From the NCBI GenBank assembly GCA_020346245.1, contig CP070778.1, forward strand, positions 1,591,924 to 1,628,054: a stretch of 36,131 bases of DNA, given 5' to 3'. The notes below the pieces were generated by a model, which was not told the DNA's origin, did no database searches, and saw only the letters and a program-made list of their open reading frames with translations. This DNA comes from Flavobacteriaceae bacterium. GTDB lineage: Bacteria; Bacteroidota; Bacteroidia; Flavobacteriales; Flavobacteriaceae. Positions 18,410 through 27,029 of the stretch are shown here, piece after piece; the stretch's first letter is position 1; the number at the start of each line of letters is the position of its first letter. The position numbers were made by a program, and so were the translations under genes.

Positions 18410-18465
18410 GAGGATTGATTCAACTAATACCCAGGTATTGGAAAGAATCAATCCTCACTTTGTTT
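18410..18465. terminator. Large inverted repeat between convergent TonB and phosphoesterase genes
   Basis: A perfect 12-bp outer stem (GAGGATTGATTC at 18410-18421, GAATCAATCCTC at 18445-18456) encloses a further AATACC/GGTATT pairing, followed by CTTTGTTT on the plus strand. The right arm overlaps the last codons of the leftward phosphoesterase gene. Probably a terminator, mainly for the rightward transcript. Confidence 0.7.
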
Positions 18466-19350
18466 ATAATCTGATAATTGCTGAGGTCCTTCAAGTAAAA
18501 CCCTGACAATCTGAAGGGTGCCGTCTTCCTTGGTTGCTATTTGCCACTTAATTAGAGAAATTGAGCCGTTTACTATTTCAATACCAGTTATGCTTCTTGG
18601 GTGTACGCAGCTTCCATCGTTAAATAAAGGAATATCTCCAGGTTCGGGGAATCTCGGCCTGTGTGTATGTCCGACTATGGTTACTAATAGCTTGTTTTTT
18701 AAAATCCATCGCTTTATTCTTCGTTCTACTTTTATTAGCTCCCGATGATTTCGGGCCGGACTTGTAGGATCTGCAATTCCCCATACCTGAAGAGGTTTCC
18801 ATAGAACGCGCACTAAAAATCGGTTAAACCGCCATCCATGATAATTCATAAAATCTGCCTGATGGCCATGAGTTAAAAATAGTTCCTGCCCATTGGTACT
18901 GTGTTTTAGGATTATTGCTTCATGAAACTTTAATTGGTCTAATAAACTAGTTTCCTTGTCTTCTTTCGGTTCAAAATAGGTAAAGAGATGTTTTTTCACA
19001 TATGCAGGGTTTCTGTAGACCATATCGTGATTGCCGAATATCATATGCAACCTCTTTTCCTCATGAAAACGTTTCATTAACATGTAAATATTCTTGTGAG
19101 CTTCAAAAATGGGTTCAAAACTCAGGTTCTCCCAAAGTTCATCTCCATCTCCTAGCTCACAGTATTGGAACCCGTTATTAAAATAATGTTTTAAGGCATG
19201 AAAGTAGATATTGCGGTTATTCGCAAACTCATCAGCAAAACTATTGTCGCCCCTGTGACAATCACTGAAAAGGATAAACTTTGAGGAATCATCAAATGCT
19301 ATGGTTTTAGCCCTTTTGTAGGCGCTGCTAAGTCTTTTATCCGATGACAT
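18448..19350 (-). CDS. Calcineurin-like metallophosphoesterase
   Basis: A 300-residue cytosolic two-metal phosphoesterase. The conserved ligands are visible in order: D30-x-H32 (FSDCHRG), D68/D70 (LGDGDELW), N107-H108 (FGNHDM), H161 and H163 (THGHQ), and H228-x-H230 (GHTHRP). The arrangement is closest to UDP-2,3-diacylglucosamine hydrolase-like and similar serine/threonine phosphatase-fold proteins, but the substrate cannot be told. There is no signal peptide or anchor, though the stretch around 175-190 is moderately hydrophobic. It converges with the TonB gene, and its last codons lie inside the shared inverted repeat. It is divergent from the GAF-domain gene, with 115 bases between starts. 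Confidence 0.88.
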   Translation of the reverse strand: MSSDKRLSSAYKRAKTIAFDDSSKFILFSDCHRGDNSFADEFANNRNIYFHALKHYFNNGFQYCELGDGDELWENLSFEPIFEAHKNIYMLMKRFHEEKRLHMIFGNHDMVYRNPAYVKKHLFTYFEPKEDKETSLLDQLKFHEAIILKHSTNGQELFLTHGHQADFMNYHGWRFNRFLVRVLWKPLQVWGIADPTSPARNHRELIKVERRIKRWILKNKLLVTIVGHTHRPRFPEPGDIPLFNDGSCVHPRSITGIEIVNGSISLIKWQIATKEDGTLQIVRVLLEGPQQLSDYKQSED

Positions 19351-19465: not shown

Positions 19466-21835
19466 ATGGAACCAATGAATAAAGATATGCCGCTGCAAAT
19501 GTTGATTAGCTTTGAAAAGCTATTAAAGCAGTATGATGCAATGGCTAAGAGCGATGATCCTCTTTTATCATCCAGAGCTAAGCATGTATTGGAAACTCAG
19601 GCGCCATACCCAGAACTCAGGGAAGGTTTTTCAGATGTTGAGCTTCTGGAAAAACATAAAGACATTATTCGGGTAATTTTGCAGGATTCATTTGCAGAAG
19701 TTCTGAGTGAAAATGAAATTAAGGCCGCATCTCTTCCTTATTATGACGTTGTGTTTAATAAATCCAAAAGATTTCAAAAGATTTTGGACAATGCCGGAAA
19801 GGATTTCAAACTTTTTATAAGAGATCAGGATGAAGGGGTTGACTATATTATGGGATCAACAGTAATCCTTAAATGGCATTACGGATTTAACCTTGATTTT
19901 AGCAGACCCTACTTTTATGATATACCGGATGCCAACGGAATAATGCATCATTATCGTATTCTGTATAATGCTGATTTCATGGATTTAATCCCTACCGATC
20001 TGGCAAAAGATTTAACTCAGGCAGATGTTGACAAGCTTCTGGAAAATCCGGAAGATCTTGAGCTCTGGAAGGAAATGATCCCACCGAATAGTTTTATTTC
20101 AAAAGGATTTGTTATATCAAACATGTTTGATGTTACTGCCGAACATACTATTTCTGAAATTAAAACAAACCTTATCTCGAGTGATAAAAGAGGAAGTGAA
20201 ACCTTTATTTCGGATCTGCAGGAGACCTTTAGATCTTTCTTTAAGATTAAAGAATTAAAAATAGGTTTTGTCACATATAACACAAAAGATAATCTGCTGG
20301 AACGTGTTTATGGTAATGGAATAGAAAGTTTTCTCCTAAAAGAGAAAAATAATGAGGCTTGTAATCATGTCCTATGCGTTGGGTCCTATGCTAAAATAGT
20401 TAAGGAGAAAGGCTATTTTGCAATATCTGATGTGGATAAATACTATAAATTATCTGAAGGTGCAGAGCCTTACCGAAGCTTGCATGAACAAGGTATTAAA
20501 AGCGCCGTTTTTGCCCCTATTGTCAATGAAGGAGAACTTTTGGGTGTGCTGGAACTGGTATCCACTAAAAAAAATCAGCTAAACGGAGTTAACGCAACAA
20601 AGTTGGATGATGTAATGCCCTATATTGTTGCCGCTGTTGTCCGCTCTAAAATTGAAGAGGAAAACTTGATAGATGCCATTATTCAAAATGAATGTACTTC
20701 GGTGCACTCCTCTGTTCACTGGCGATTTGAAGAGGAAGCCAAACAATTTATTATAGACGGACTGGAAGGTCGACAGCCCTCATTTAAAGAAATAGTCTTT
20801 AAGGATGTCTATCCATTATACGGTCAAATAGATATTAAAGCCTCTTCACAGGCAAGAAATATAGCTATTCAGCGAGATTTGATGATTCAATTATCCAATA
20901 TTAAGGAAATATTGAATGCTGCATTGAAAAATGAAAAGTTGCCAATTTATGAAGAACTGATTTATAGGATAGACAAGTATATTGATGACATAAAAGAGAC
21001 CTTATTTACCAATAGTGAACAAACTATATTTGATTTTATAAATGCAGATGTGCTGCCCATATTTGATCATCTGAAAAACCAGAATAAGGAATTGTCTGAT
21101 TTGATAGAAGCATATGAAAAGACCATCAATGAGGAAACTCATTCCTATTATGATCACAGGAAACAATATGATGACAGTGTAATGCGGATTAATAAAAAAC
21201 TGGCGTCCGAAATTGATCGGCATCAGGAGGCCGCACAGCAGATGTTCCCTCACTATTATGAGCGTTATAAGACTGATGGGATAGAACACAACATGTATAT
21301 TGGAAGTTCTATTTCGGAGGATAAGGATTTTGATCCGCTGTATTTAAAAAATCTGCGGTTATGGCAACTTCAGGTAATGTGCGAGATGGAAAATAAGTAC
21401 TACAACCTTAAACCGGAATTGGATGTTCAGCTGGATGTTACCTCTCTTATTCTTGTTTATAGCACGTCCTTGTCTATTCGCTTCAGAATGGATGAAAAAC
21501 GATTTGATGTGGATGGCACCTATAATGCCCGATACGAAATAATAAAAAAGCGAATTGATAAATCATATATCAAAGGCACAAATGAAAGGCTAACCCAAAA
21601 AGGAAAGCTTTCTATTGTTTACTCTCAAAAGAAAGATGAACAGGAGTACCTTAGATATATATCTTTCCTGAAATCGAAAGGGTATTTTACCAATAACATT
21701 GAAATAGTAGACCTTGAAGGTCTTCAGGGTGTTTCGGGGCTAAAGGCAATAAGAGCCGAGATTCTTTACAAGAAGAACTCAGAAGACGAAAAAACCTTTA
21801 CCTATGAAGATCTCATGGAGGAATTAAAAGCCTAG
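19466..21835 (+). CDS. GAF-domain protein with large uncharacterised flanking regions
   Basis: A 789-residue cytosolic protein with no signal peptide or membrane segment. Residues about 235-400 look like a GAF sensor domain: a helix, a strand with KIGFVTYN, a loop, then FAISDVD and IKSAVFAPIVNEGELLGVLELVS, which is the characteristic final GAF strands. Residues 1-230 and 410-789 match no domain I recognise; the latter is helix-rich, acidic and basic in alternation, with RQKGKLSIVYS-like strands near the end. There is no histidine kinase, GGDEF, cyclase or HTH segment visible, so the output is unknown. It converges on the HD-Pycsar gene with only 14 bases between the ends, and TAnnTTTG-like sequences (TAGTTTTG, TAATTTTG) occur just before its start. 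Confidence 0.8.
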   Translation: MEPMNKDMPLQMLISFEKLLKQYDAMAKSDDPLLSSRAKHVLETQAPYPELREGFSDVELLEKHKDIIRVILQDSFAEVLSENEIKAASLPYYDVVFNKSKRFQKILDNAGKDFKLFIRDQDEGVDYIMGSTVILKWHYGFNLDFSRPYFYDIPDANGIMHHYRILYNADFMDLIPTDLAKDLTQADVDKLLENPEDLELWKEMIPPNSFISKGFVISNMFDVTAEHTISEIKTNLISSDKRGSETFISDLQETFRSFFKIKELKIGFVTYNTKDNLLERVYGNGIESFLLKEKNNEACNHVLCVGSYAKIVKEKGYFAISDVDKYYKLSEGAEPYRSLHEQGIKSAVFAPIVNEGELLGVLELVSTKKNQLNGVNATKLDDVMPYIVAAVVRSKIEEENLIDAIIQNECTSVHSSVHWRFEEEAKQFIIDGLEGRQPSFKEIVFKDVYPLYGQIDIKASSQARNIAIQRDLMIQLSNIKEILNAALKNEKLPIYEELIYRIDKYIDDIKETLFTNSEQTIFDFINADVLPIFDHLKNQNKELSDLIEAYEKTINEETHSYYDHRKQYDDSVMRINKKLASEIDRHQEAAQQMFPHYYERYKTDGIEHNMYIGSSISEDKDFDPLYLKNLRLWQLQVMCEMENKYYNLKPELDVQLDVTSLILVYSTSLSIRFRMDEKRFDVDGTYNARYEIIKKRIDKSYIKGTNERLTQKGKLSIVYSQKKDEQEYLRYISFLKSKGYFTNNIEIVDLEGLQGVSGLKAIRAEILYKKNSEDEKTFTYEDLMEELKA

Positions 21836-21849
21836 CATTACTGTTGAGA

Positions 21850-23037
21850 TCAGTAAACTACCTGGCCTAAATGTTTAAACGCCAGGGCAAAGGCTATTAC
21901 AGAAACAATAATGCCTACCACAAAAATACTATAGGTCCAACGTAAGATCTTGTATTTTCTGTGCAGCACCAAGCCAAGAAAATAGAGGTCTTTAGTGAGT
22001 GAAGAATAAATATAATCTTTGTCTTTAACCAATTCCTGAAGGGCCAGCTCATACTCATTCAATTTCATTTTATGAAAATTCCCAAAAAATAGGAGATTCA
22101 CCTTTTTATTGGCCACATCATCCTTACTGAATTTACCGCTGCCTACATTTGGGCGGGTTGCGATAACGGCCATAACCATTGAAGTAACCGTGAATAATAA
22201 GAAAATTAAGGTAGGGTAAATAAGATAGGTATTGGAGGGATTGTCAAGTTTTGGTATAAGGTTAGACAATACTACAGAAATAATAATTGCGTTGACAGAT
22301 AACAAAATATTTGCTTTGGTGTCTGCAATTTCACTAAGTGTTATGTGGTTTTTTAAGGTTACCCTAAACAGGGTCTGAATGCCCCTATCCGGGCTTTCAC
22401 TCTTATATTTTGCCTTTAATCGTTCTTTTTTTGCAATTTCTTTATCCTTTTTAATCTCTTTCTCAAGGACCTTCAGATTTTTGTCTTTTCGCTCCTGCCA
22501 GTTTGATTTGGCATAATCTGTATAAAACTGGTGTTGTTTTCTGAACATCTTTATGTTCTGCTCCATCCAATCTTTATATGAATATTCCGCTATGCCCAAC
22601 AATGAAAGTTCCTCCCGGAGTAGTTCACAGGTTTCTATATAACTTTTTTGGGCAAAATGTGAGGCGTCCGCATCTCGGATAATCTGTTCAAGTAAGTTTT
22701 TGGGCTCATAGATCATTTGTGTAGCCATAATGCATGCCTGAACCTGTTTGATACCCTCTTTATCATATCCCTCTTTTTCAAGAAAATCTTTTGTAATGTC
22801 ACAGCTACTTCTTTCGTGCTCCTTGTGGCCCTTAGTATATCCTGTATCATGCAACCAGGATGCCAACAACAAAACTTCTTTTTCTTTATTGCTCAGTGAA
22901 TTGACTTCTATTAATTCCCCGGTGCTATTTACTACCCTTTGGGTATGCTTCAGATTATGATATAGATATTTTGGATCCAATTGTGTTGACAACAAGTCAA
23001 CAGCAAAGGCTTCAGTTTTTACTAGAATATCAGACAT
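21850..23037 (-). CDS. HD phosphohydrolase fused to a Pycsar-effector-type membrane domain
   Basis: A 395-residue protein with two parts. The N-terminal HD domain (about 20-160) has H31, the H63-D64 pair in SWLHDTGY, and D124 in RDADASH, the metal ligands of HD phosphohydrolases, often active on nucleotides. A lysine/glutamate-rich coiled-coil-like linker spans about 175-213. The C-terminal part (about 220-395) has ADTKANILLSVNAIIIS, then membrane helices at about 244-262, 272-293 and 369-388, and the ATRP motif after the second. This is the pattern of the DUF5706/PycTM family, named for Pycsar antiphage effectors responsive to cyclic pyrimidines. No cyclase gene is adjacent. A defence role is inference; a housekeeping signalling role is equally possible. 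Confidence 0.85.
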   Translation of the reverse strand: MSDILVKTEAFAVDLLSTQLDPKYLYHNLKHTQRVVNSTGELIEVNSLSNKEKEVLLLASWLHDTGYTKGHKEHERSSCDITKDFLEKEGYDKEGIKQVQACIMATQMIYEPKNLLEQIIRDADASHFAQKSYIETCELLREELSLLGIAEYSYKDWMEQNIKMFRKQHQFYTDYAKSNWQERKDKNLKVLEKEIKKDKEIAKKERLKAKYKSESPDRGIQTLFRVTLKNHITLSEIADTKANILLSVNAIIISVVLSNLIPKLDNPSNTYLIYPTLIFLLFTVTSMVMAVIATRPNVGSGKFSKDDVANKKVNLLFFGNFHKMKLNEYELALQELVKDKDYIYSSLTKDLYFLGLVLHRKYKILRWTYSIFVVGIIVSVIAFALAFKHLGQVVY

Positions 23038-23330: not shown

Positions 23331-26300
23331 ATGATGAAACGGATATATAAGGCATTGACTGTTATAGTTTGTATTGCAGTTTTATCTTCCTGCGCTTCAT
23401 ACAGGGTCCAATACAAGGAAGAGAACTTAAAGGCTCAACAAACAGACAGTGAAATTTTACACTCTTTTTATTTAATAGGAGATGCGGGGTATTCGCCCAT
23501 AGGATCAAAATCTGAAGCACTCCGGTCTTTTGAAAAAGCACTAAAGCAAGCCTCTAAAAATAGTACAGCCCTGTTTTTAGGAGATAATATATACCCAAAA
23601 GGCTTGCCGGAAAAAGGAACTGAAGGGAGGGAATATGCTGAGCACCAGTTGAATGTCCAAACCGATGTTGTAAAAGATTTCGCTGGGAGGACAATTTTTA
23701 TTCCGGGAAACCACGATTGGTATAGCGGAGGACCTAAAGGTCTTGAAAGACAGGAAGAATATATCGAGGACAAGCTTGGAAAAAACACCTTTCTTCCGGA
23801 AGAGGGCTGCCCAATCCGAAAAGTTGAAATCAATGATGAGGTGGAGTTAATTATTGTGGATACGGAATGGTACCTTACCAAATGGGATAAATTTCCAACA
23901 TTAAATGACAATTGTGAAATTAGAACCCGTAACCGTTTTTTTCTGGAATATGAAAGCCTAATTAAAAAGGCCAGAGGCAAGACCACAGTGATTGCTTTGC
24001 ATCACCCATTGTTTACCAATGGCCCCCATGGCGGACAGTTTTCAGTAGGACAGCATATGACCCCCATCCCGGTTTTGGGGACTTTAAAAAATGTACTCCG
24101 CCGAGCCGGTGGCGTTTCTCCTGCAGATATACAATATAAACGATATGATGAATTCAGGGATCGAATAATTACACTTTCTCAGGATAATAATAAAATAATT
24201 TTTGTTTCCGGACATGAACACAGCCTTCAATATTTGGTTGAATCCAATTTGCCTCAAATAGTCAGTGGGGCAGGTTCTAAAACTACACCAACAAGAAATG
24301 TTGGTGGCGGGCAATTTTCCTATGGATCTCCGGGTTATGCCAGATTGGATGTTTTTAAAGATGGTTCTTCTCATGTAAGTTTCTTCTCAACAAAAGAGAA
24401 CAAAGTAGTATTTGAAACTGAGGTGCTACAAGAGGATCGCCCAATAATAACTGATTATCCTGATAATTTTCCGAAAGAAAAAACGGCTTCAATTTATACT
24501 AAAGAGGAAACAGATAAAGGTAAGACCTTTAAATGGCTTTGGGGAGAACGCTATCGCAAATTATATAGCACTGAACTCACTGTACCTACAGTGAACCTGG
24601 ATACCCTCTTCGGAGGTCTTAGTCCGGTGCGCAAAGGAGGAGGGCACCAGTCTAGTTCTTTGCGTTTGAAAAACAAAGAAGGGCAGGAGTATATCATGAG
24701 GGCAATGCGAAAAGATGCACTGCTATATATTCAAGCTGTTGGTTTTAAGAACCAATATGTAAAAGATGAGTTTGCAGGTACAAAAACGCAGGAACTTGTT
24801 TTGGATGTATTTACAGGGGATCATCCCTATACCCAGTTTATCATTGGAGACCTGGCCGATGCTGTTGGGGTATTCCATACCAATCCTAGTTTATATTATG
24901 TGCCAAAGCAAAATGCTATTGGCCGTTTCAATGATGAATTTGGGGATGCACTTTATGCCATTGAGGAACGAACAGATGACGGGCATGGAGACAAAGCCAG
25001 TTTTGGCTATGCCAATGAGATGATTAGTACACTAGACATGTTGGAAAAGTTAAAAAAGAATGAGGATCACAAAATAGATGAAACTACCTATGTTCGTGCC
25101 CGGCTGTTTGATATGTTATTGGGAGATTGGGATCGCCATCAGGATCAATGGCGCTGGGCAATTTTTAAGGAAGATGGGGTAACTACCTATAAACCTGTTC
25201 CAAGAGACAGGGACCAGGCATTTTCAATTATGAATGATGGTTTTGCCCTGGGACTGGCCACTAAGCTTGCCGCCCCTACACGGGTATTAAATTCATATGA
25301 AGAAGATATCAAAGATGTGCAATGGAGCAATTTAAATCCTTATGTTCTGGATGTTGCTGTGATACAGGAATCAGACAAAGCAGTATGGGATGAACAGGCA
25401 GCCTATGTGGCGTCTCATATTACTGATGAAGTTATAGATGCCGCATTTGAAAAATTGCCTGATGAAGTGAAGGATGAGAACATGGAGGATATTAAGCGAA
25501 AGTTGAAAGGCAGGCGTGGGAACTTGCGAAAAATTTCGGATGCCTATTTTAAGGTTGTAAATAGATATGCCGTGGTACGAGGTACGGATAAGGACGATTG
25601 GTTTGAGATTGAAAGAATGCCCAATGGCCAAACCAAAGTTACAGGCTATAGAATAAAGAGAGGTAAAAAAGGTTCTGTGTTTCATGAAAAAATATATAAA
25701 ACTGAAAGCACTAAGGAAATTTGGGTGTATGGCCTGGACGATGATGATTATTTTCATGTTATCGGGGAAGGAGATCATCCCATAAAATTACGCATGATTG
25801 GTGGCTCCAATAATGACAGTTATGAGGTCTTGAATGGTAAAAAAGCCCATATCTATGATTTTAAAAGTAAACCCAATACACTGCTAACCAAAAAGGGCAA
25901 ACAGCATATCAGGGATGATTATGAGAATAATAATTATAACTATAGGAAACCGAAATATAATGTAAACGCAGTTCTCCCATTAATAGGGGTAAACCCGGAT
26001 GATGGGCTAAAGCTGGGCATAATTGCAGGACATACCAGGTATGGCTTTGAGCGAAACCCTTTTACATCCACGAATAGAATAGCGGCAGCCTTATATACGT
26101 CTACCGGTGGATTTGATGTACGATATCAGGGAGAATTCGCTCATGTGGTGGGTAAATGGAACCTGGCCATCAATGGTGTGCTAACCAGCCCGAATTACAG
26201 TATAAACTTTTTTGGTTATGGGAATTCTACACCAAATCCGAACGTTGAAGATGAAGATAATTTTAATCTGAATTACAATCGGGTCAAACTGGGCACATTA

Positions 26301-27029
26301 GGTGGTTTTGTAGGATTGGCCTGGCATGGGGAAAATAATGGGGAATTTAGGATAGGGGTTAATTACAAAACCTATGAATTGGAAGAGACTCAGGGAAGGT
26401 ATATAAATTTATTTTCCGACTTTATCGCTCAGGAAGAGCGAAATAATTTTTTGGGAGCCGAGGCCGTGTATAGTTATACTAATAGTGATAACCCTGCATT
26501 TCCAACCCTGGGTATGGAGGCAGAATTTAGAACCGGAATTACCTCGAACCTTGACAATTCAAACACTTTTGGATATTTCATTCCGACGCTTGGTTTTGCG
26601 TACAAGATATCACCAAATGGTCAATTGGTTTTAGCTACCAGGTCTAAGGCCCATCTTATTTTTGGCGATGATTTTGAATTTTACCAGGCTGCGAGTATCG
26701 GTGGTAACGACGGTTTACGGGGCTATAGAAATGAACGTTTTACTGGGAAATCCTCTTTTTATCAGACTTCGGATCTGCGCTTCAATTTTAAAAGATATAA
26801 AACAGGACTGGTGCCGGTTGAAGTAGGCATATTTGGAGGATTTGATATAGGCAGAATCTGGGTAGATGATAGCCTGGTAGTAGATCCTTCCTTTAATCGG
26901 GATATCTGGAATACTTCCTATGGAGGCGGATTTTTTATCAACGGTACAGATTTGGTCACTGCCAACCTCGGGCTATTTGGTTCGGACGATGGTCTTCGAT
27001 TTTATTTTGGATTTATTTTGGGATTATAG
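23331..27029 (+). CDS. Lipoprotein fusion: metallophosphoesterase, kinase-like segment, outer-membrane beta-barrel
   Basis: A 1232-residue envelope protein. The signal ends in a lipobox, LSSC (C21). Residues about 44-365 form a calcineurin-like phosphatase: D51 (GDAG), D85-N86 (LGDNIYP), N127-H128-D129 (GNHDW), H224-H225, and H295-x-H297 (GHEH). Residues about 420-700 contain a glycine-rich turn (G436-G438), a basic stretch around 457-461, then LLGDWDRHQDQW (D599, D601) and VPRDRDQAF (D626, D628). This spacing resembles the catalytic and metal loops of CotH/Fam20/HipA-type kinases. From about 880 the sequence alternates like an outer-membrane barrel of the BamA/TamA or surface-antigen type, with GGNDGLRGYRNERF before the last strands. 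The start could be M1 or M2. Kinase activity is inference. Confidence 0.85.
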   Translation: MMKRIYKALTVIVCIAVLSSCASYRVQYKEENLKAQQTDSEILHSFYLIGDAGYSPIGSKSEALRSFEKALKQASKNSTALFLGDNIYPKGLPEKGTEGREYAEHQLNVQTDVVKDFAGRTIFIPGNHDWYSGGPKGLERQEEYIEDKLGKNTFLPEEGCPIRKVEINDEVELIIVDTEWYLTKWDKFPTLNDNCEIRTRNRFFLEYESLIKKARGKTTVIALHHPLFTNGPHGGQFSVGQHMTPIPVLGTLKNVLRRAGGVSPADIQYKRYDEFRDRIITLSQDNNKIIFVSGHEHSLQYLVESNLPQIVSGAGSKTTPTRNVGGGQFSYGSPGYARLDVFKDGSSHVSFFSTKENKVVFETEVLQEDRPIITDYPDNFPKEKTASIYTKEETDKGKTFKWLWGERYRKLYSTELTVPTVNLDTLFGGLSPVRKGGGHQSSSLRLKNKEGQEYIMRAMRKDALLYIQAVGFKNQYVKDEFAGTKTQELVLDVFTGDHPYTQFIIGDLADAVGVFHTNPSLYYVPKQNAIGRFNDEFGDALYAIEERTDDGHGDKASFGYANEMISTLDMLEKLKKNEDHKIDETTYVRARLFDMLLGDWDRHQDQWRWAIFKEDGVTTYKPVPRDRDQAFSIMNDGFALGLATKLAAPTRVLNSYEEDIKDVQWSNLNPYVLDVAVIQESDKAVWDEQAAYVASHITDEVIDAAFEKLPDEVKDENMEDIKRKLKGRRGNLRKISDAYFKVVNRYAVVRGTDKDDWFEIERMPNGQTKVTGYRIKRGKKGSVFHEKIYKTESTKEIWVYGLDDDDYFHVIGEGDHPIKLRMIGGSNNDSYEVLNGKKAHIYDFKSKPNTLLTKKGKQHIRDDYENNNYNYRKPKYNVNAVLPLIGVNPDDGLKLGIIAGHTRYGFERNPFTSTNRIAAALYTSTGGFDVRYQGEFAHVVGKWNLAINGVLTSPNYSINFFGYGNSTPNPNVEDEDNFNLNYNRVKLGTLGGFVGLAWHGENNGEFRIGVNYKTYELEETQGRYINLFSDFIAQEERNNFLGAEAVYSYTNSDNPAFPTLGMEAEFRTGITSNLDNSNTFGYFIPTLGFAYKISPNGQLVLATRSKAHLIFGDDFEFYQAASIGGNDGLRGYRNERFTGKSSFYQTSDLRFNFKRYKTGLVPVEVGIFGGFDIGRIWVDDSLVVDPSFNRDIWNTSYGGGFFINGTDLVTANLGLFGSDDGLRFYFGFILGL

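Follow-up and report, generated by a model that had tools for sequence, protein, structure and literature searches.

A calcineurin-like phosphatase, a predicted kinase-fold domain and an Omp85-type barrel in a single envelope protein of Bacteroidota

We analysed a stretch of 36,131 nucleotides from the 3.05 Mb genome of a marine Flavobacteriaceae bacterium (contig CP070778.1, positions 1,591,924 to 1,628,054; the window hereafter), in which a single open reading frame at 23331-27029 (+ strand, ATG start) encodes a protein of 1232 residues. This protein joins an N-terminal calcineurin-like phosphatase domain, a middle domain predicted to have a kinase fold and a C-terminal outer-membrane barrel in one chain. 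Four points are shown by computation: the order of the domains, the kinase fold predicted for the middle one, the conservation of the two active sites, and which class the barrel belongs to. On balance, we read the protein as a pair of phosphate-modifying enzyme domains anchored to the outer membrane and facing the periplasm. The three-part layout had been proposed in an earlier note made from the nucleotide sequence, and it is borne out by the single frame, by Pfam families at both ends and by the kinase fold predicted between them. The features of the gene, all on the + strand, are as follows.

23331-27029, +, whole gene for the three-part protein (open reading frame; 81 aligned proteins)
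23331-23393, +, lipoprotein signal peptide and lipobox, ending in Cys21 (sequence; lipobox regular expression)
23448-24485, +, purple-acid-phosphatase-type calcineurin domain, predicted, residues about 40-385 (Pfam Metallophos, phmmer, Foldseek)
24576-25565, +, predicted kinase-fold domain, residues about 416-745 (AlphaFold2, VIA-align, Foldseek)
24612-24668, +, glycine-rich loop GGLSPVRKGGGHQSSSLRL, residues 428-446 (conservation in 81 proteins and wider relatives)
25116-25151, +, catalytic-loop-like motif LLGDWDRHQDQW, residues 596-607, with D601 as proposed catalytic Asp (conservation; hhalign onto CotH)
25197-25223, +, metal-loop-like motif VPRDRDQAF, residues 623-631, with D626 as proposed metal Asp (conservation; hhalign onto CotH)
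25566-25955, +, beta-rich linker domain, residues about 746-875 (secondary structure of the model)
25956-27026, +, Omp85-type barrel, residues about 876-1232, with conserved GLRGYR segment (Pfam, Foldseek, strands; NCBIfam below cut-off)

In the window protein, Pfam recognises the two ends only, Metallophos at residues 46-297 (E 3.7e-8) and Omp85 at residues 959-1155 (E 2.7e-6), both above cut-off. Residues 388-905 have no Pfam family above cut-off (E up to 1), nor one that is consistent across relatives, and the middle domain is without a Pfam or NCBIfam family. Relatives were confirmed 513 times among genome contigs; the best 80 and the window's own copy form the alignment of 81 proteins used below. 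The closest named relatives are from Eudoraea species (71-95% identity), and full-length identity to the window protein is 52-96% over 77 other alignment rows. A full-length AlphaFold2 model (residues 33-1232, 78 rows) reached a predicted local distance difference test score (pLDDT) of 86.9 and a predicted template modelling score (pTM) of 0.86.

The fold of the middle domain was predicted with AlphaFold2 for residues 388-905 from the 81-row alignment and without templates (pLDDT 89.0, pTM 0.88), and the model contains a two-lobed kinase core. Searched against the PDB with Foldseek, the domain gave four matches at E<=0.001: CtkA, PI4K-IIalpha, MSMEG_1954 (which we take to be kinase-like) and ADCK3. 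The remaining rows listed are kinase-like by title, and two of them come from a pre-40S ribosomal particle, where the chain is presumably a RIO kinase; Fam20C (5yh2) is among the weaker matches (E 7.4e-3). VIA-align 2 placed PI4K-IIbeta (Z 14.9, 262 residues, root mean square deviation 4.9) and Bacillus cereus CotH (5jd9; Z 14.4, 256 residues, root mean square deviation 4.0) level at the top, followed by CtkA (Z 13.6) and HipA (Z 11.5). The best 50 matches listed span Z 10.2-14.9 over 208-271 residues and include PI4K-II, CotH, CtkA, PI3K/mTOR and HipA, and a family missing from these fold lists is not thereby excluded. The matches cover model residues 29-358, i.e. protein residues 416-745. 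Models without a clear match typically reach a best Z of 7 to 8 in this comparison, or 14 if they are mostly helical; we regard values of 14-15 as above background here because the fold is mixed and the families are consistent. Thus, the two-lobed core expected for this domain was returned by structure prediction and matched by structure search, and we have very little doubt, on the strength of this model, that the middle domain has a kinase fold. The likeness first suggested for it is borne out for CotH and HipA by these fold matches, with Fam20C appearing at a weaker E value, and with the refinement that PI4K-II and CotH are tied as best.

The candidate active-site residues of this domain are strongly conserved. 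LLGDWDRHQDQW begins at residue 596, VPRDRDQAF at residue 623 and the glycine-rich GGLSPVRKGGGHQSSSLRL upstream at residue 428, so that the aspartates named by the earlier note are correctly numbered as D599, D601, D626 and D628, with D601 and D626 25 residues apart. All four are identical in 81/81 aligned proteins, as are R602, H603 and D605; conservation, on which the kinase proposal could have failed, thus leaves it standing. In the same alignment, conservation reaches at least 97% at G436-G438, Q440, S441, S443, L444, R457, K461, D492 and E545, and GG.xQ[ST] is retained in most of 114 wider relatives described below. When the family was compared by hhalign with 21 CotH sequences (drawn from 25 loci), GDWDRH fell onto the CotH segment around QWDGY, and PRDRDQAF onto SYDLDNTF. 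Because both motifs are in register, D601 would correspond to the catalytic Asp of CotH and D626 to its metal Asp, and conservation and profile register together put these two residues in the usual kinase places. In Bacillus subtilis CotH, the substitutions D228Q and D251A are reported to be inactive (PMC7821199). The catalytic-to-metal spacing is 25 residues here (D601-D626) versus 23 in CotH (D228-D251) and, by motif and spacing, D601/D626 are the predicted counterparts of D228/D251. A strict CotH motif pattern matched only 3/21 of the CotH sequences; it is the profile register, not this pattern, that supports the motif likeness. A HipA-type sequence from our loci (L157) has the loop NCDDHTKN, with the metal-loop Asp 23 residues after the first Asp.

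The N-terminal domain belongs to PF00149, the Pfam name of which is calcineurin-like phosphoesterase. The window protein carries all of D51, D85, Y88, N127, H128, H224, H295 and H297, in agreement with the initial description of a phosphatase with all its metal ligands. Purple acid phosphatases bind their metals through Asp, Asp, Tyr, Asn, His, His and His, the Tyr following a GDN sequence. D51, D85, Y88, N127, H224, H295 and H297 fit this set, and Tyr88 does follow GDN. A weak phmmer match to purple acid phosphatase 1qfc (E 0.018) and a Foldseek match to GAP50 (3tgh, E 1e-10) were also obtained. From its sequence, the domain is of the purple-acid/tartrate-resistant phosphatase type, with predicted phosphatase activity. 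All eight positions are retained in 60/65 phosphatase domains of the wider set, the exceptions being L184, L206, L223, L226 and L241.

At the other end of the chain, the barrel is of the Omp85 type. Besides the Pfam match, 16 long C-terminal strands were counted in the full-length model, and Foldseek ranked BamA first and TamA third for that model, so the outer-membrane barrel expected at the C-terminus is confirmed; the score against NCBIfam NF047779 (58.8 bits) is below the cut-off of 200. These BamA/TamA matches and the conserved GLRGYR segment would also suit a protein that works mainly as an Omp85-like outer-membrane assembly factor, with regulatory or vestigial enzymatic domains. We consider this improbable: no POTRA family was recognised by Pfam in the window protein, and conservation is strong at both active sites. 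A search with the barrel alone gave a match in 13 of 119 genomes of the class, and the open frames found were mostly of the same lengths as in the middle-domain search, two being shorter (370 and 485 residues). The linker between the kinase-fold domain and the barrel carries GLDDDDYF and GGSNNDSY segments, which give an impression of calcium-binding repeats.

The position of the enzyme domains was assessed from the N-terminus. Residues 1-21 resemble a lipoprotein signal ending in Cys21, and a lipobox regular expression matches 75/81 aligned proteins; among the six misses, L005 and L044 still show SSCAT/TSCAT, and L008, L019, L067 and L071 have a late or early start call. Surface lipoproteins of Bacteroidota are reported to carry an acidic export signal at positions +2 to +6 after the lipobox Cys. 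An acidic residue is missing from these positions in 70/75 proteins, which favours the periplasmic side. PlpD of Pseudomonas aeruginosa, an Omp85 protein of similar plan, is described as having an exclusively periplasmic enzyme domain (PMC11116518). The enzyme domains are therefore probably periplasmic, a position that the lipid anchor and barrel also suggest, and the "surface-anchored" lipoprotein of the earlier note is unsupported. Alternatively, the Omp85 barrel might move the N-terminal domains to the cell surface, where they would act on extracellular phosphate compounds or ATP (adenosine triphosphate). Proteins with an enzyme domain in front of an Omp85 barrel have long been read in this way, PlpD included (in the account of PMC4104836), and surface lipoproteins are described as abundant in Bacteroidota (PMC12611786). 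Given the mostly missing acidic signal and the periplasmic location now reported for PlpD itself, we judge surface display unlikely.

We then consider how the three parts are distributed. A search of 296 Bacteroidota genomes with the middle domain gave matches at E<=0.001 in 111 of them, the window's own included, at 137 places and in 61/140 genera. Proteins were obtained for 114 of the 136 places outside the window (22 were left out by hand), many of them at 25-45% identity. These wider relatives comprise 63 proteins with phosphatase, kinase-fold domain and barrel, 38 with kinase-fold domain and barrel, and 13 with neither phosphatase nor barrel. A core of K461, D/E492, D601, D626 and D628, a set picked after the alignment was seen, is intact in 98/114 (61/63 three-part, 26/38 two-part and 11/13 remaining proteins, uncorrected for relatedness). 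The stand-alone copies L112-L116 are 423-425 residues long. In L119 and L199, from two genomes that share one genus code, kinase-fold domain, phosphatase and barrel are encoded by three adjacent genes on one strand, the second and third overlapping by 4 bases in both; the arrangement shows directly that the parts are distinct modules and that they belong with one another. A tree of 115 rows, built by a quick method, requires at least 11 changes of architecture; because several degenerate rows are long branches, no number of independent losses is given. The two three-part proteins without D601, L206 and L223, also lack some phosphatase ligands, a joint loss that counts as one case because they are sisters. 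L184, L226 and L241 have lost phosphatase ligands and kept the kinase core. The domain is present in five plasmid records, and none was found in phage records; a plasmid copy from the gut bacterium Parabacteroides distasonis is annotated "hypothetical protein".

Two further loci hold barrel-less copies in groups. At L117:4126-9151, three kinase-fold genes lie side by side, one of them on the opposite strand and without D601 (GDWSRR), and L118 has a divergent kinase-fold pair similar to that of L117.

In the mechanism that we propose, the lipidated N-terminus and the Omp85-type barrel would hold both enzyme domains at the outer membrane, on its periplasmic side. There, the phosphatase domain would remove phosphate, and an envelope lipid, glycan or protein would receive phosphate, or another group, from the kinase-fold domain. 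D601 would act as the catalytic Asp, and metal would be bound by D626 together with Q606 and perhaps D628. We infer that both domains act on one substrate, and we lean towards a catalytic phosphotransfer role for the kinase-fold domain.

Several observations weigh against this reading. Firstly, sequence comparison gives it little help. No kinase was matched by sequence with the middle domain in the PDB or Pfam. In profile-profile comparison by hhalign, CotH came first of 36 comparisons, with P 0.0059 and a probability of 6%, both weak; this P value was obtained with the wider set after degenerate rows had been dropped, and 44 family rows gave P 0.0026. HipA reached P 0.059 (44 rows) and 0.074 (wider set), scarcely ahead of the strongest unrelated control (0.080). 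The 34 control clusters, taken from the flanks of the loci, ranged over P 0.080-0.80 and include SelO at 0.69, a cluster which we take to be itself kinase-like. A P value of 0.006 is modest across 36 comparisons, so sequence alone is insufficient to carry the kinase claim. Secondly, no residue stands out as the usual beta3 Lys, which kinases pair with an acidic residue of alphaC; conserved here are the basic R457 and K461 and the acidic D492. Thirdly, the core is missing in 16/114 wider relatives, which means that the fold can serve without it; 12 of these 16 degenerate copies are barrel proteins without a phosphatase, and they may be pseudokinases. Fourthly, the stand-alone copies L112-L116 share no neighbour family common to three or more of them and so offer no pointer to a substrate. 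Finally, the periplasm is not known to contain ATP.

The weak sequence-profile support could also mean that the domain resembles kinases only spuriously, through the way its motifs were read or through the model itself. The high-confidence, template-free model and its Z scores of 11-15 to several kinase families have largely refuted this already, and we regard it as very improbable indeed. Related searches gave the following results. CotH (PF08757) and HipA_C (PF07804) have no Pfam match in the window protein (E up to 1) or in the window genome at E 1e-10, and CotH is absent among the best 25 of 35 Pfam families listed for the 81 proteins. PDB profile matches to ribosomal eS7 (E 0.02), a cysteine-rich protein and HDAC6 are unrelated and inconsistent, and Pfam matches to EnY2 (17/81), BBP1_C (7/81) and LMWSLP_N (8.6e-5, 2/81) are scattered and unrelated; we attribute both groups to chance.

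A different possibility is that the kinase-fold domain transfers another group, as SelO, a kinase-fold enzyme that adenylylates proteins, sets a precedent for, or that it only binds a phosphorylated ligand which the phosphatase domain hydrolyses. Its atypical residues (Arg457 where Lys is usual, and QW after DRH) would suit such a role, as would a periplasm that is not known to contain ATP and the persistence of 12/38 barrel members that have no phosphatase and have lost the core. However, D601, D626 and D628 are kept in 61/63 phosphatase-bearing proteins and in 11/13 barrel-less copies, which argues for catalysis in those proteins. We consider transfer of another group, or mere binding, rather unlikely, and retain the paired phosphate-modifying enzymes as our reading. 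The kinase proposal first drawn from motifs has thus gained a predicted fold and invariant aspartates; its sequence-profile support is weak, and catalysis itself is still inferred.

The genes around the three-part gene were also catalogued. Upstream and on the opposite strand, 21850-23037 (-) encodes an HD domain with a PycTM membrane domain of the Pycsar effector type, and such a gene is near the three-part gene in 42/80 relatives. A 789-residue protein without a Pfam family, with a sub-threshold NCBIfam match to a chloramphenicol acetyltransferase model, is encoded at 19466-21835 (+) and recurs in 33/80 relatives. A gene for the SelO protein adenylyltransferase (e.g. L014:2455-4017) lies within flanks of up to 6 kb in 31/80. 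We read these three neighbours as local synteny rather than as partners. Pfam scans around L119 (an efflux protein, components of an ABC transporter, MgtE) and around L112, L113, L115 and L123 gave no hint of a substrate. The window also holds a separate gene for another calcineurin-like phosphoesterase, about 4 kb upstream (18448-19350, -), and at L112:7155-9665 (-) a DUF5686 protein with a carboxypeptidase-regulatory-like domain adjoins the stand-alone kinase-fold gene.

Among known systems, the closest in plan is the Omp85 "Metallo" subfamily, which Heinz and Lithgow defined in 2014 by PF00149, called a metalloprotease domain (PMC4104836), within a scheme that includes Omp85 subfamilies lacking the POTRA domain, of which other Omp85 proteins have at least one. 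The window protein fits that definition, with PF00149, an Omp85 barrel and no POTRA family recognised by Pfam; it differs in that PF00149 is of phosphatase type here and is followed by a kinase-fold middle. No intervening domain is named in the description of "Metallo" in PMC4104836, and the word "kinase" does not occur in its main text. The barrels of the "noNterm" subfamily are described there as resembling those of "Metallo", and our guess is that some "noNterm" proteins are the form with kinase-fold domain and barrel. PlpD likewise has a periplasmic enzyme domain fused ahead of an Omp85 barrel, but that enzyme is patatin-like (PMC11116518), in contrast to the phosphatase and kinase fold here. 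CotH (PF08757; B. cereus 5jd9) shares the fold, the spacing of catalytic and metal Asp and the hhalign register of both motifs; the domain studied here differs from it in having no Pfam CotH match, 11-12% identity in structural alignment, a DRHxxQW loop and a fusion to an envelope barrel. PI4-kinase type II, CtkA and HipA share the fold and a DRHxxN-like loop, with 8-14% identity in structural alignments and another architecture. The purple acid and tartrate-resistant acid phosphatases share the metal-ligand positions given above, the Tyr that follows GDN among them, but are distant in sequence (E 0.018), and the domain here is part of a bacterial envelope fusion. A Riemerella metallophosphoesterase for which phosphatase activity is described may or may not belong to the three-part family. 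In open-licence papers, we found no report of the kinase-fold domain or of the motif GDWDRH, which is no proof of absence.

These results add a kinase-fold family to a compartment in which ATP-dependent kinases are unexpected, and they correct the reading of a named Omp85 subfamily, "Metallo", in which the metal domain had been taken for a protease. The kinase-fold domain is common in Bacteroidota (111/296 sampled genomes). Tentatively, and as a possibility we would not press, an unrecognised family of extracytoplasmic kinases may extend through the phylum, placed on outer-membrane barrels and each with an opposing phosphatase in the same chain. Drawing on a phosphate donor that is not cytosolic ATP, such a pair would phosphorylate and dephosphorylate envelope lipids or proteins in a cycle. 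With a phosphatase and a kinase-shaped domain in one chain, the envelope may be a place where phosphate is both attached and taken off, and a single gene, or a set of three neighbouring genes in two species, provides a system in which to ask about phosphate cycles of the outer envelope.

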